From positions 2,316,501 through 2,380,500 of the forward strand of contig NZ_CP077091.1 in NCBI RefSeq assembly GCF_014268595.2: a stretch of DNA of 64,000 nt. The letters are read 5' to 3'. The DNA comes from Pseudomonas hamedanensis. GTDB lineage: Bacteria; Pseudomonadota; Gammaproteobacteria; Pseudomonadales; Pseudomonadaceae. A model generated the notes under the pieces. The model saw only the letters and a list, made by a program, of their open reading frames with translations. It was not told the origin of the DNA and searched no databases. A program made the translations under genes and the position numbers. This document shows, one piece after another, positions 44,085 through 47,033 of the stretch (position 1 is the first letter of the stretch; the number at the start of each line of letters is the position of its first letter).

Positions 44085-44190
44085 GGCGCTTAGTTTTATG
44101 TTTTTAAATAAGAAAAACGCCGGCCAAAAACAGAATAAAAAATCTATTTAAAAATTAAATAAACATTTTTTTGCATTCTAAAAGGCTCTG
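44085..44190. other. AT-rich stretch upstream of the peptide gene
   Basis: Runs of A and T (for example TTTAAAAATTAAATAAACAT) contrast sharply with the GC-rich surroundings. It lies 80-180 bases before the 45-residue peptide gene and probably holds its promoter; such tracts are typical binding sites of the xenogeneic silencers MvaT/MvaU. A short CCGGCC...CCGG hairpin lies between it and the ATG. The rest of the gap 43811-44084 shows nothing recognisable. Confidence 0.6.
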
Positions 44191-44266
44191 AACTAGGTTT
44201 TTCACGTCTCACCGGCCACCTCGACCGGTCAGTCATAAACCGTGAAAGTCATCTAGGAGATCGACC

Positions 44267-44404
44267 ATGCAAGCACTGGAAAAAGACTTGGATACCGAAC
44301 TGCAACTGGACGAATGGTTTGAAGCACCGACCCATGAGGCCGCCGTGGAAATGATGCAAGCCGACGCGGTGGTTCCGTTCGGCACGGCGATGTGGCCTCT
44401 GTAA
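44267..44404 (+). CDS. 45-residue peptide, candidate precursor of a modified peptide
   Basis: The ORF starts MQALEKDLDTELQLDEWFEA and ends DAVVPFGTAMWPL, preceded by TAGGAGATCGACC, a very good ribosome-binding site. The first 30 or so residues are strongly acidic and helical (leader-like); the last twelve are neutral and hydrophobic (core-like), ending Trp-Pro-Leu. A perfect stem-loop separates it from the next gene, a layout seen where a precursor peptide must be made in excess over its processing enzyme. Function unknown; the RiPP-type reading is inference. Another option is a small regulatory or structural partner of the downstream M29-like protein. Confidence 0.75.
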   Translation: MQALEKDLDTELQLDEWFEAPTHEAAVEMMQADAVVPFGTAMWPL

Positions 44405-44413
44405 CACATCCCG

Positions 44414-44444
44414 GGCAGGCACGGTCCGGCCGGTCGTGCCTGCC
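44414..44444 (+). terminator. Stem-loop between peptide gene and M29-like gene
   Basis: Perfect 10-bp stem GGCAGGCACG/CGTGCCTGCC with an 11-base GC-rich loop, ten bases after the peptide stop. The following GCTTTCG is a poor T-run, so it is probably a partial terminator or mRNA-stabilising hairpin. Confidence 0.65.
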
Positions 44445-44474
44445 GCTTTCGTCACGGTCAGTCAGGGAGGATTC

Positions 44475-45440
44475 ATGGATAAGTCCCGCGCGATCTCGCA
44501 TTTCCTTTACTACCTCGAACATCACCCCGCCCTTGCCGGCCTCGACTCGGCGAAGGTATTGCTCGGCCACACTGCCGACTACGAAGCCCTGACCGGCGCC
44601 ATCGCCGAACAGGCCGGCGAGCATCCGCGCTTTCGCTTCAGCGCGCGACGCCTGGACCTGGAGAGCACCGCAGCGCTGGCTACGGCAATTGCCGACAGCG
44701 ATCTGTACATTTTCTTCTACGACTCTTCCACCCTGCCCACCCCACGCCCCGACGGCCCGGAGTTTGTCCGTGCACTGCAAGCGGTGATGGCGGAAAACTG
44801 GAAGAAGTCGCTGCTGTTCAAGGATTACGGCGACTATTTCTACGACACTTTCAGCATCGCCCCGCAGCGCATCGCCGGACTCAATAGTCACCTGATCCAG
44901 CGCATGTCCCAGGCGACCACGCTGAGCTTCAAGGATGACCACGGCTCGTGGTTCGAAACACCGATGAGCAGCATCAAGAAGTGGACCGACATCAACGGCG
45001 TCGGCAACTTCGACCTCGCCCCCGGCGAAATCGCCACTCACAGCGAAGCCATTAACGGCCACGTTAAATTCAAGGGCACCTTTCTCAGTACCATTCCGTT
45101 TGCACGCAAATACGGCGTGCTGGAGTCACCACTGGAGTTGTGGATCGAAAATTCGACCATCAGCCGCATCGCCACCGACGTACCGGGGCTGGAACATGAT
45201 TTCAACAAATACCTGAACGCGAATCCGTCGAACCGGCGGATCGAAGAACTGGGGATTGGCACCAATGAAGGCGTGAAAGACCTGTATGCGCGCAATGCCG
45301 GGTTTGAAGAGCGGCATTGTGGCTTGCATCTCGGATTGGGCGGCGGCGCCAAGGGCAGCCATCACCTGGACCTGATCTTTTCTGGCGGGGTGTTGGCGCT
45401 GGATGACAAACCAGTCTTCGACGGACGGTTTGTGTTCTAG
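44475..45440 (+). CDS. M29 metallo-aminopeptidase-like protein
   Basis: A 321-residue cytosolic protein. The C-terminal half follows the thermophilic aminopeptidase (M29) pattern: FDLAPGEIATHSEAINGHVK (Glu185 at the first metal-ligand position), IEELGIGTNEGV (Glu258), GFEERHCGLHLGLGGGAKGS (His285) and HHLDLIFSGGVLALDDKPVF (His297, Asp299). The N-terminal 170 residues are less typical and the protein is shorter than the usual roughly 400-residue M29 enzymes. GGGAGG precedes ATG 44475. It lies 70 bases after the 45-residue peptide gene and probably acts on that peptide, either as a peptidase or as a modifying enzyme that reuses the fold (inference). Nothing else on this strand follows. Confidence 0.75.
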   Translation: MDKSRAISHFLYYLEHHPALAGLDSAKVLLGHTADYEALTGAIAEQAGEHPRFRFSARRLDLESTAALATAIADSDLYIFFYDSSTLPTPRPDGPEFVRALQAVMAENWKKSLLFKDYGDYFYDTFSIAPQRIAGLNSHLIQRMSQATTLSFKDDHGSWFETPMSSIKKWTDINGVGNFDLAPGEIATHSEAINGHVKFKGTFLSTIPFARKYGVLESPLELWIENSTISRIATDVPGLEHDFNKYLNANPSNRRIEELGIGTNEGVKDLYARNAGFEERHCGLHLGLGGGAKGSHHLDLIFSGGVLALDDKPVFDGRFVF

Positions 45441-45464: not shown

Positions 45465-45567
45465 GGCCGCTTCGCGGGCAAGCCCGCTCCCACAGGTTTC
45501 ATTGGTGTACGTAATATCTTGAACAACTCAAAACCCTGTGGGAGCGGGCTTGCCCGCGAAGGGGCCG
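45465..45567. repeat. Extragenic inverted repeat (GGGAGCGGGCTTGCCCGCGAA type)
   Basis: GGCCGCTTCGCGGGCAAGCC and its inverted partner GGGCTTGCCCGCGAAGGGGC about 60 bases apart, between the M29-like gene and rluB. Confidence 0.88.
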
Positions 45568-45669: not shown

Positions 45670-46890
45670 TTATTCCGGCTTCTTGCGACCAAACCCCGGA
45701 CGCTGACCCGAGCCCGCTGGTGCGCCACGGCGCTTGCCCGAGGGCTTGTCACCGTCGACCAGTTTGATCCCCGGACGCTTCGGCGCCGGTTTGGCCGGAC
45801 GCTTGTTGGTGGTGTCCGCTGGACGATCGGCCACCGGCGTACCGCGACCGGCAGGCGCGCCACGTTCGCCACGCTCGGTACGGCCATTGGCTGGACGCGG
45901 TGCACGCTCGCCGTCACGGGCAACCGGCTTGCGACCTGGACGCTCGCCTTCGATCTGCGGCTCGCGGCCCGGACGTGGACCGGTCGGTGCGCCAGCGGCT
46001 GGGCGCAAGGTGCGCACGCGCTCGGTCTTGGCCATCGGCCGCGACGATTTACGCTGCATACGCTCCAGCTTGTCCTTGCTCTTGGCGTTCAGTTGCGGCA
46101 TGGCTACCGGCGTCAGGCCGACTTCAGCACTGAGGATGTCGACTTCGTACTGGCTCATTTCGCGCCAGCGGCCCATCGGCAAGTCGGAGTTGAGGAACAC
46201 CGGACCGAAGCGCACGCGCTTCAGACGGCTGACCACCAGACCCTGCGATTCCCACAGACGACGCACTTCACGGTTGCGGCCTTCCATTACCACGCAGTGA
46301 TACCAGTGGTTGAAGCCTTCGCCACCCGGCGCCTGCTTGATGTCGGTGAACTTGGCCGGACCGTCTTCCAGCACCACACCGGCCTTGAGGCGTTCAATCA
46401 TCTCGTCGTCAACTTCACCACGGACACGCACGGCGTACTCGCGGTCCATCTCGTAGGACGGGTGCATCAGGCGGTTGGCCAGTTCACCGTCGGTGGTGAA
46501 CATCAGCAGACCGGTGGTGTTGATGTCGAGACGACCGATGTTGATCCAGCGGCCTTCTTTCGGACGCGGCAGCTTGTCGAACACGGTCGGACGGCCTTCC
46601 GGGTCGTCACGGGTGCAAATTTCGCCGTCGGGCTTGTTGTACATGATCACGCGGCGCACCGACTCGGCAGCCTCTTCGCGTTTGATCACCTTGCCATCGA
46701 TAGTGATGGCGTCGTGCATGTCGACGCGCAGGCCGAGGGTGGCGTCTTTGCCATTGACCTTGATCCGGCCCTGGCTGATCCAGGCTTCGACGTCACGGCG
46801 CGAGCCGACGCCGATACGGGCGAGGACTTTCTGCAGTTTTTCGCCTGCTGGGCCGATTTCCTGGTCGTCTTTCTGATTGATGTCACTCAT
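45670..46890 (-). CDS. rluB: 23S rRNA pseudouridine(2605) synthase RluB
   Basis: A 406-residue protein with an S4 RNA-binding domain (about 18-75; LQKVLARIGVGSRRDVEAWI) and a RsuA-type pseudouridine synthase domain with the catalytic Asp in WINIGRLDINTTGLL and GRNREVRRLWESQGL. The last 120 residues are a low-complexity Arg/Pro/Gly/Lys tail, common in Pseudomonas RluB. ATG 46890 (MSDINQKDDQEIG) with GGGAGG seven bases upstream is chosen. Confidence 0.95.
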   Translation of the reverse strand: MSDINQKDDQEIGPAGEKLQKVLARIGVGSRRDVEAWISQGRIKVNGKDATLGLRVDMHDAITIDGKVIKREEAAESVRRVIMYNKPDGEICTRDDPEGRPTVFDKLPRPKEGRWINIGRLDINTTGLLMFTTDGELANRLMHPSYEMDREYAVRVRGEVDDEMIERLKAGVVLEDGPAKFTDIKQAPGGEGFNHWYHCVVMEGRNREVRRLWESQGLVVSRLKRVRFGPVFLNSDLPMGRWREMSQYEVDILSAEVGLTPVAMPQLNAKSKDKLERMQRKSSRPMAKTERVRTLRPAAGAPTGPRPGREPQIEGERPGRKPVARDGERAPRPANGRTERGERGAPAGRGTPVADRPADTTNKRPAKPAPKRPGIKLVDGDKPSGKRRGAPAGSGQRPGFGRKKPE

Positions 46891-47033
46891 CTGGGCACCT
46901 CCCGGTGTGGTCTGTTCAGGCGGCGCCTGAAGCATTGAAAACTGTGTTTTCGGGCGAAGGGATCGCCGAAGGGTCGCGAATCATACGCGGATGTGCGCCA
47001 TCGCGCATCAGAGACTAGCTGATCGATCGACAG

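Follow-up and report, generated by a model that had tools for sequence, protein, structure and literature searches.

The gene pair at positions 44267-45440 of the window, by which we mean the whole analyzed stretch of 64,000 nucleotides from Pseudomonas hamedanensis, is probably a minimal RiPP-type locus that combines a precursor peptide with a CgnB-like enzyme. The data suggest a small, unexplored pathway for a peptide-derived compound in many bacteria. A first-pass annotation of the bare DNA had already read the locus as precursor plus enzyme, and this reading survived the comparisons in which it could have failed, namely a peptide ORF that is not conserved or an M29-like gene that occurs widely without any adjacent peptide gene. 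In contrast, the meaning that the annotation had assigned to an AT-rich tract and its statement that no system of this kind has been described did not hold.

Organization of the gene pair

The first gene (44267..44404, + strand) is an ORF conserved in relatives and encodes an acidic, precursor-like peptide of 45 amino acids (10 D/E, 1 K/R), whose residues 35-45, VVPFGTAMWPL (44369..44401, +), are a conserved C-terminal segment and the presumed core. The second gene (44475..45440, +) follows head to tail and encodes a protein of 321 amino acids that appears to be M29-derived and CgnB-like. Ribosome-binding sites precede both ORFs, TAGGAG in the case of the peptide and AGGGAGG in the case of the 321-residue protein. 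The annotated short peptide gene with its good ribosome site was thus found as described, and the two-gene locus as a whole was confirmed, as both genes are genuine and have been conserved together. Upstream lies an amino-acid permease gene (PF00324; 41961..43391, -) and downstream an S4/pseudouridine synthase gene (45670..46935, -), which we take to be rluB. REP-like palindromes (GCGGGCAAGCCCGCTCCCACAGG and its complement) form an inverted pair at 45468-45565 just 3' of the enzyme gene, presumably similar to a REPIN.

Searches of Pfam and NCBIfam at E <= 1 assigned neither the peptide nor the 321-residue protein to a model, which may explain why any role of the pair has gone unnoticed, and the protein as a single sequence had no match in the PDB. 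A known defense system was dropped as a candidate, since PADLOC gave no match to the peptide or the enzyme at E <= 0.1. No other known RiPP maturase, protease, or exporter gene was recognized beside this type of pair (type 1), in agreement with the annotation, which had seen no known RiPP enzyme nearby.

A sigma70-like promoter, TTGCAT-17-TAGGTT (44171..44199, +), is present in 76 of 81 loci, and one of the five misses has only 76 bp of upstream sequence. The AT-rich tract (about 44097-44185, +) overlaps the -35 element of this promoter, and the mean AT content from -200 to -100 relative to the peptide start is 71% (79 loci). Between the two genes lies a terminator-like hairpin (44414..44444, +). 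Its annotation as a perfect 10-bp hairpin was correct: it has 10 uninterrupted Watson-Crick pairs, or 13 pairs if two G-U pairs are allowed. Of 73 distinct spacers from Pseudomonas, 61 have a stem of at least nine pairs, covariation was evident from two-sided changes at 7 of the 11 consensus pairs in 14 sequences, and stem-loops occurred in the gene spacers of all four other loci that were folded (L134, L154, L180, and L181). The simplest reading would be a leaky terminator that permits more peptide than enzyme to be produced.

The peptide tail is conserved and of the type AVxMM...AVVPFGTAxWP. Two forms occur, ..DAVVPFGTA(M/L)WP(x) and ..SAVIPFATALWA, and the peptide of the genome G1253 has the form ..AVVPVGTAMWPI. 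The two key Trp residues are spaced exactly 26 apart in each of the 81 Pseudomonas peptides (own copy and best 80 of 178 relatives), and the interval contains no gap in the wider peptide alignment A5.

As the last ~27 residues are conserved, with Trp-Pro just before the stop codon as in the arrest peptide TnaC and a terminator-like hairpin directly behind, the peptide could alternatively be a ribosome-arrest leader, in which case stalling would act on the hairpin and in this way regulate the enzyme gene. However, conservation extends back to residues 14-17, and the last Trp is followed by either Pro or Ala, with L, F, M, V, I, or nothing thereafter. Moreover, the peptide gene of G1253 lies 275 bp downstream of the very enzyme gene that it would have to control, which excludes an arrest leader as a general rule and makes this explanation very unlikely.

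Conservation and linkage in Pseudomonas

Relatives of the 321-residue protein were collected in a scan of one genome per species, and the best 80 of 178, all titled Pseudomonas, were kept; together with the own copy, these are the 81 loci. The peptide gene, which has 44-45 codons, adjoins the enzyme gene in all 81 loci, at a distance of 58-93 bp upstream, a constancy that is not due to chance. The co-occurrence across Pseudomonas genomes, which the annotation had proposed as a check, was clear: among 398 genomes, the protein was matched in 143, the peptide in 141, and both in 140. The three enzyme-only genomes (G034, G178, and G249) contain enzyme relics. In the sole peptide-only genome (G376), the enzyme was not matched at 1e-8, and the peptide lies just 264 bp from the rluB-type gene. 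In two of the 140 genomes with both matches (G215 and G305), the enzyme is split over two frames.

In 2,278 pairs of 68 loci, pN/pS was 0.094 for the peptide (pN 0.026, pS 0.277) and 0.141 for the enzyme (pN 0.066, pS 0.468); the other 13 of the 81 loci were excluded as the enzyme length differed or the aligned peptide start was not ATG. These ratios indicate purifying selection on both genes, and the gap between the two is only moderate. As the synonymous rate of the peptide gene is also low, part of the peptide's stability may reflect synonymous constraint and thus be related to expression.

Among the best 80 of 178 relatives, all 78 loci that include the upstream flank have the amino-acid permease gene there, and on the downstream side 74 of 75 loci have the rluB-type gene. 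As these flanks are nearly constant, the syntenic site speaks for an old vertical inheritance with losses. The annotation had taken the AT-rich tract as a sign of acquisition or silencing, which can be discarded because the tract overlaps the conserved promoter and the flanks are syntenic.

In the locus that lacks the rluB-type gene (L062:9070-10713), a groEL-like gene, recognized by eye, occupies the expected position, reflecting a rearrangement or an assembly join. In four further cases from Pseudomonas (L118, L121, L122, and L135), decayed or partial remains of the pair lie in the vicinity of these flanking genes, in line with repeated loss; the permease gene was not matched in L118.

Occurrence outside Pseudomonas

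The samples comprised 321 genomes class-wide, 378 phylum-wide, two families with 180 and 79 genomes, and 3 genomes of the family of G717. They contained 21 enzyme copies of the same subfamily in 19 genomes, and those that were aligned are 53-54% or 40-44% identical to the protein of the window. This count excludes matches that were weaker or more remote, namely G424, which is decayed and had no peptide match, as well as G478, G483, G448, G610, G722, G1060, G800, G872, and G990. The peptide adjoins the enzyme in 20 of the 21 copies, of which 17 belong to one genus (15 genomes, two of them with a second copy) and the others to G717, G1302, and G1253. In the exceptional G992, the enzyme is located at a contig end, and the whole genome gave no peptide match. 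Within the subfamily, the enzyme was therefore seen alone only as a relic or at a contig end, and a wide distribution of the M29-like gene without the peptide, which would have spoken against the pair, was not encountered.

The genus with 15 genomes is probably Burkholderia, as three records of named Burkholderia replicons carry the protein with 46-48% identity, and the one that was read, from B. arboris, also contains the peptide, ending with ..VVPFGTALWPV. The family of G992 and G1302 is presumably Enterobacteriaceae. The neighboring genes vary among the lineages that were read, and therefore the pair itself is the unit. Two genomes of the Burkholderia-like genus (L175 and L176) contain a type-1 pair and a second pair of type 2, whose peptide ends with WA.

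Some M29-like genes are more distantly related. At L111:4350-5746, in a Pseudomonas genome that also carries the main pair, a gene for a 394-residue M29-like protein (27% identity) has a 64-residue ORF directly upstream and lies near cupin and HMGL-like aldolase genes; no phage record matched this protein. At L140:3380-4777, a 59-residue ORF precedes an M29-like gene in two frames; the contig is viral and, by eye, contains P2-like tail genes. By its gene names, we take this contig to be P2-type prophage-like, and the cassette looks like an accessory, prophage-borne element. No precursor was recognizable by eye in the distant relatives L112, L137, and L155-L157. In one of them (L156:2898-4886, - strand), the M29-like gene is directly followed by a gene of the phytanoyl-CoA-dioxygenase family (PF05721, E 5.9e-46).

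M29 ancestry and putative metal site

None of the residues E185, E258, E279, H285, H297, and D299 varies among the aligned relatives, even where identity drops to about 20% (alignments A4 and A7). Five of them had been annotated as metal ligands, and E279 is a sixth likely ligand that was missing from that list. In the alignments, the putative metal site comprises the six di-zinc-type ligands E, E, E, H, H, and D in CgnB-like spacing, with E-6-H-12-H-2-D here and E-6-H-11-H-2-D in CgnB (PMC10070186). The annotated relationship to M29 proteins was also recovered by hhalign, which aligned the protein to the M29 protein L138 with a probability of 97.1 (E 7.6e-11, 190 columns) when the wide alignment A4 was used and with 65% (E 5.9e-5) when the narrower A3 was used. 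These alignments indicate that the 321-residue protein is M29-derived. A second, divergent M29 protein was not matched by hhalign, and the Pfam model PF02073 of the M29 family gave no match to the protein at E <= 1 and no matches in a search of the own genome.

M29 aminopeptidases have the catalytic set EEHYHD, with the Tyr 7 residues past the first His (PMC7023490). The 321-residue protein has Ala292 at this place and thus does not possess this set, and none of the eight rows of A7 contains the Tyr. The M29 homology as such would be compatible with an ordinary aminopeptidase that is preceded by a fortuitous ORF. The missing Tyr in all eight aligned members speaks against this, and the linkage data already contradict it, as purifying selection evidently acts on the peptide, which stays with the enzyme in several lineages; we therefore consider the chance of an ordinary aminopeptidase to be negligible.

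The structure model of the protein, which rests on close relatives only, was poor (mean pLDDT 54). Its best Foldseek match was NicX (7cn3, E 5.6e-5), followed by AmpT and AmpS, which is suggestive only, and no chain labeled CgnB or CgnE was among the matches listed in the structural searches with this model. The NicX match would fit a small-molecule enzyme with M29 fold, for instance an Fe(II) dioxygenase of the NicX kind, that the peptide only accompanies. The low-confidence model may indeed indicate a similar fold, but NicX, a 2,5-dihydroxypyridine dioxygenase, has a mononuclear site with a single Fe(II), a Ser, and another ligand spacing (PMC7910607), whereas the protein analyzed here retains three Glu residues that match di-zinc-site ligands, and its His-His spacing is 12 compared to 53 in NicX. 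A NicX-like function is accordingly highly improbable.

With the profile A1, the only PDB match was 6zsv, which was weak (E 0.23) and was not matched with the more diverse A4. The entry has the same C-terminal motif as the 321-residue protein and also no Tyr at the M29 place. As the ligand numbering fits with a constant offset of 8, we infer that 6zsv is CgnB.

Relation to crocagin biosynthesis

Crocagin stems from Chondromyces crocatus. CgnB and CgnE, which act in its biosynthesis from the precursor CgnA, are M29-derived RiPP proteins, and CgnB coordinates two zinc ions via E161, E252, E274, H280, H291, and D293, binds the precursor, and had no observed aminopeptidase activity (PMC10070186). 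A catalytic role of CgnB was proposed but is unsettled, because efficient formation of the crocagin core takes three proteins at once (PMC10070186). CgnB homologues were reported in about 100 genomes, including Gammaproteobacteria, and the metal site is always intact in genomes with a single CgnB-type copy; crocagin-like clusters combine CgnB/CgnE copies with the dioxygenase CgnC and, except in crocagin itself, a predicted glycosyltransferase (PMC10070186). The claim that no system of this composition has been described must therefore be corrected, as CgnB/CgnE represent a related one. The main text of this paper does not mention Pseudomonas, and its supplements may list such relatives. No paper joining M29, RiPP, and precursor peptide was found in our literature searches, three sequence strings of the peptide tail gave no match, and, judged by titles, PMC10070186 was the only one among the matches listed that used CgnB/CgnE in the crocagin sense.

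One relative with a crocagin-like gene set is the type-2 locus of G1302. Behind peptide and enzyme, it encodes a TPR protein, whose glycosyltransferase-9 match is weak and below the cut-off (E 0.098), and then a 2OG-Fe(II) oxygenase (PF13640, E 6.6e-5, 24.2 bits versus a cut-off of 27). The second copy of G1197 also has the TPR protein (57% identical), with no oxygenase next to it by eye and a 2OG match on another contig. A search of four Pseudomonas genomes gave no match for the TPR/glycosyltransferase-like relative. As both combine a CgnB-like protein, a 2OG dioxygenase, and a glycosyltransferase-like gene, the G1302 set by analogy ties the peptide family to a crocagin-like kind of pathway, of which type 1 in the window is a stripped-down form.

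Beside the window pair, no Fe/2OG dioxygenase of the CgnC type was recognized, and only type-2 G1302 has such a gene next to the pair; a remote 2OG relative (31%) is encoded elsewhere in the own genome, and its counterpart was missing in 5 of 11 genomes tried (G020, G717, G1019, G1079, and G1253). There is also no second, metal-free copy of the CgnE type, as the own genome gave a single match at E <= 0.001, and the peptide ends with Met/Leu-Trp-Pro/Ala instead of Tyr-Trp. By these comparisons, the protein is a candidate member of the CgnB family: it keeps the metal-site residues, its direct sequence match to CgnB is weak, and neither the gene cluster nor the precursor is of the crocagin type.

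Proposed function

A ribosomally made precursor peptide linked to an enzyme gene, as expected of a RiPP locus, is present. We propose that a presumably strong promoter and a leaky intercistronic terminator would yield much peptide and little enzyme. The peptide region LxxW...TH..AVEMM would dock on the M29-derived, CgnB-like metalloprotein and thereby place the C-terminal PFGTA(M/L)W(P/A) at the di-metal site, where this tail may be modified or excised. The chemistry would most likely be an elimination, cyclization, or hydrolysis near the Trp-Pro end, and a small product would then be released. Several observations argue against this proposal, namely that no other known RiPP maturase, protease, or exporter gene was recognized beside the type-1 pair and that a second M29 protein was not matched, as well as the weak direct match to CgnB, the poor structure model, the non-crocagin precursor end, the acidic leader, the moderate pN/pS contrast, and distant relatives without a recognizable precursor.

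The peptide could instead be a permanent small subunit, chaperone, or inhibitor that is never modified, and the pair an ordinary metabolic enzyme. Such a role would suit a peptide that hardly varies along most of its sequence and keeps its spacing constant, the housekeeping-like stable position in Pseudomonas, and the lack of modifying neighbors in type 1. On the other hand, the intergenic, terminator-like hairpin points to different doses of the two products, the type-2 operon brings tailoring-like genes, and the closest characterized proteins act in RiPP synthesis (PMC10070186), so that we regard an unmodified subunit as unlikely.

Returning to the preferred precursor-plus-enzyme reading, a more specific version, which we put forward only tentatively, is that the PFGTA(M/L)W(P/A) tail is turned into an ultra-conserved compound resembling a cofactor or a signal, for which one di-metal protein would suffice and no oxidase would be needed. 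If true, crocagin-family chemistry would have its smallest, housekeeping-type branch here, and an M29-fold protein alone would be able to modify a peptide. A natural two-gene system with a near-invariant substrate would let the chemistry of this M29-derived family be examined alone, and as the pair occurs frequently among the Pseudomonas genomes sampled (140 of 398), its product may be central to ecology or metabolism.

Comparison with known systems

In comparison to M29 aminopeptidases (AmpT, AmpS, and PepS), the 321-residue protein has C-terminal metal-binding motifs that align with an M29 protein, but it is shorter, as the annotation had stated, has no catalytic Tyr, and has a short His-to-His loop. 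PQQ and mycofactocin are made from conserved small precursors with radical SAM enzymes. The pair resembles these cofactor-type RiPPs in its very conserved small precursor and its chromosomal stability, whereas no radical SAM gene was recognized here. Crocagin differs in its precursor, which has a basic leader and a Tyr-Trp end (PMC10070186), whereas the leader is acidic here and the core ends with (M/L)WP(x); furthermore, the type-1 system has just two genes with a single CgnB-like copy and no recognized adjacent oxygenase, methyltransferase, or protease. What both share is a gene for a small precursor whose C-terminus has a Trp at or close to its end, reported gammaproteobacterial relatives (PMC10070186), an M29-derived protein of about the same size (about 320 residues) without the M29 Tyr and with residues matching the six CgnB ligands, and, in one type-2 relative, a 2OG oxygenase together with a glycosyltransferase-like gene.
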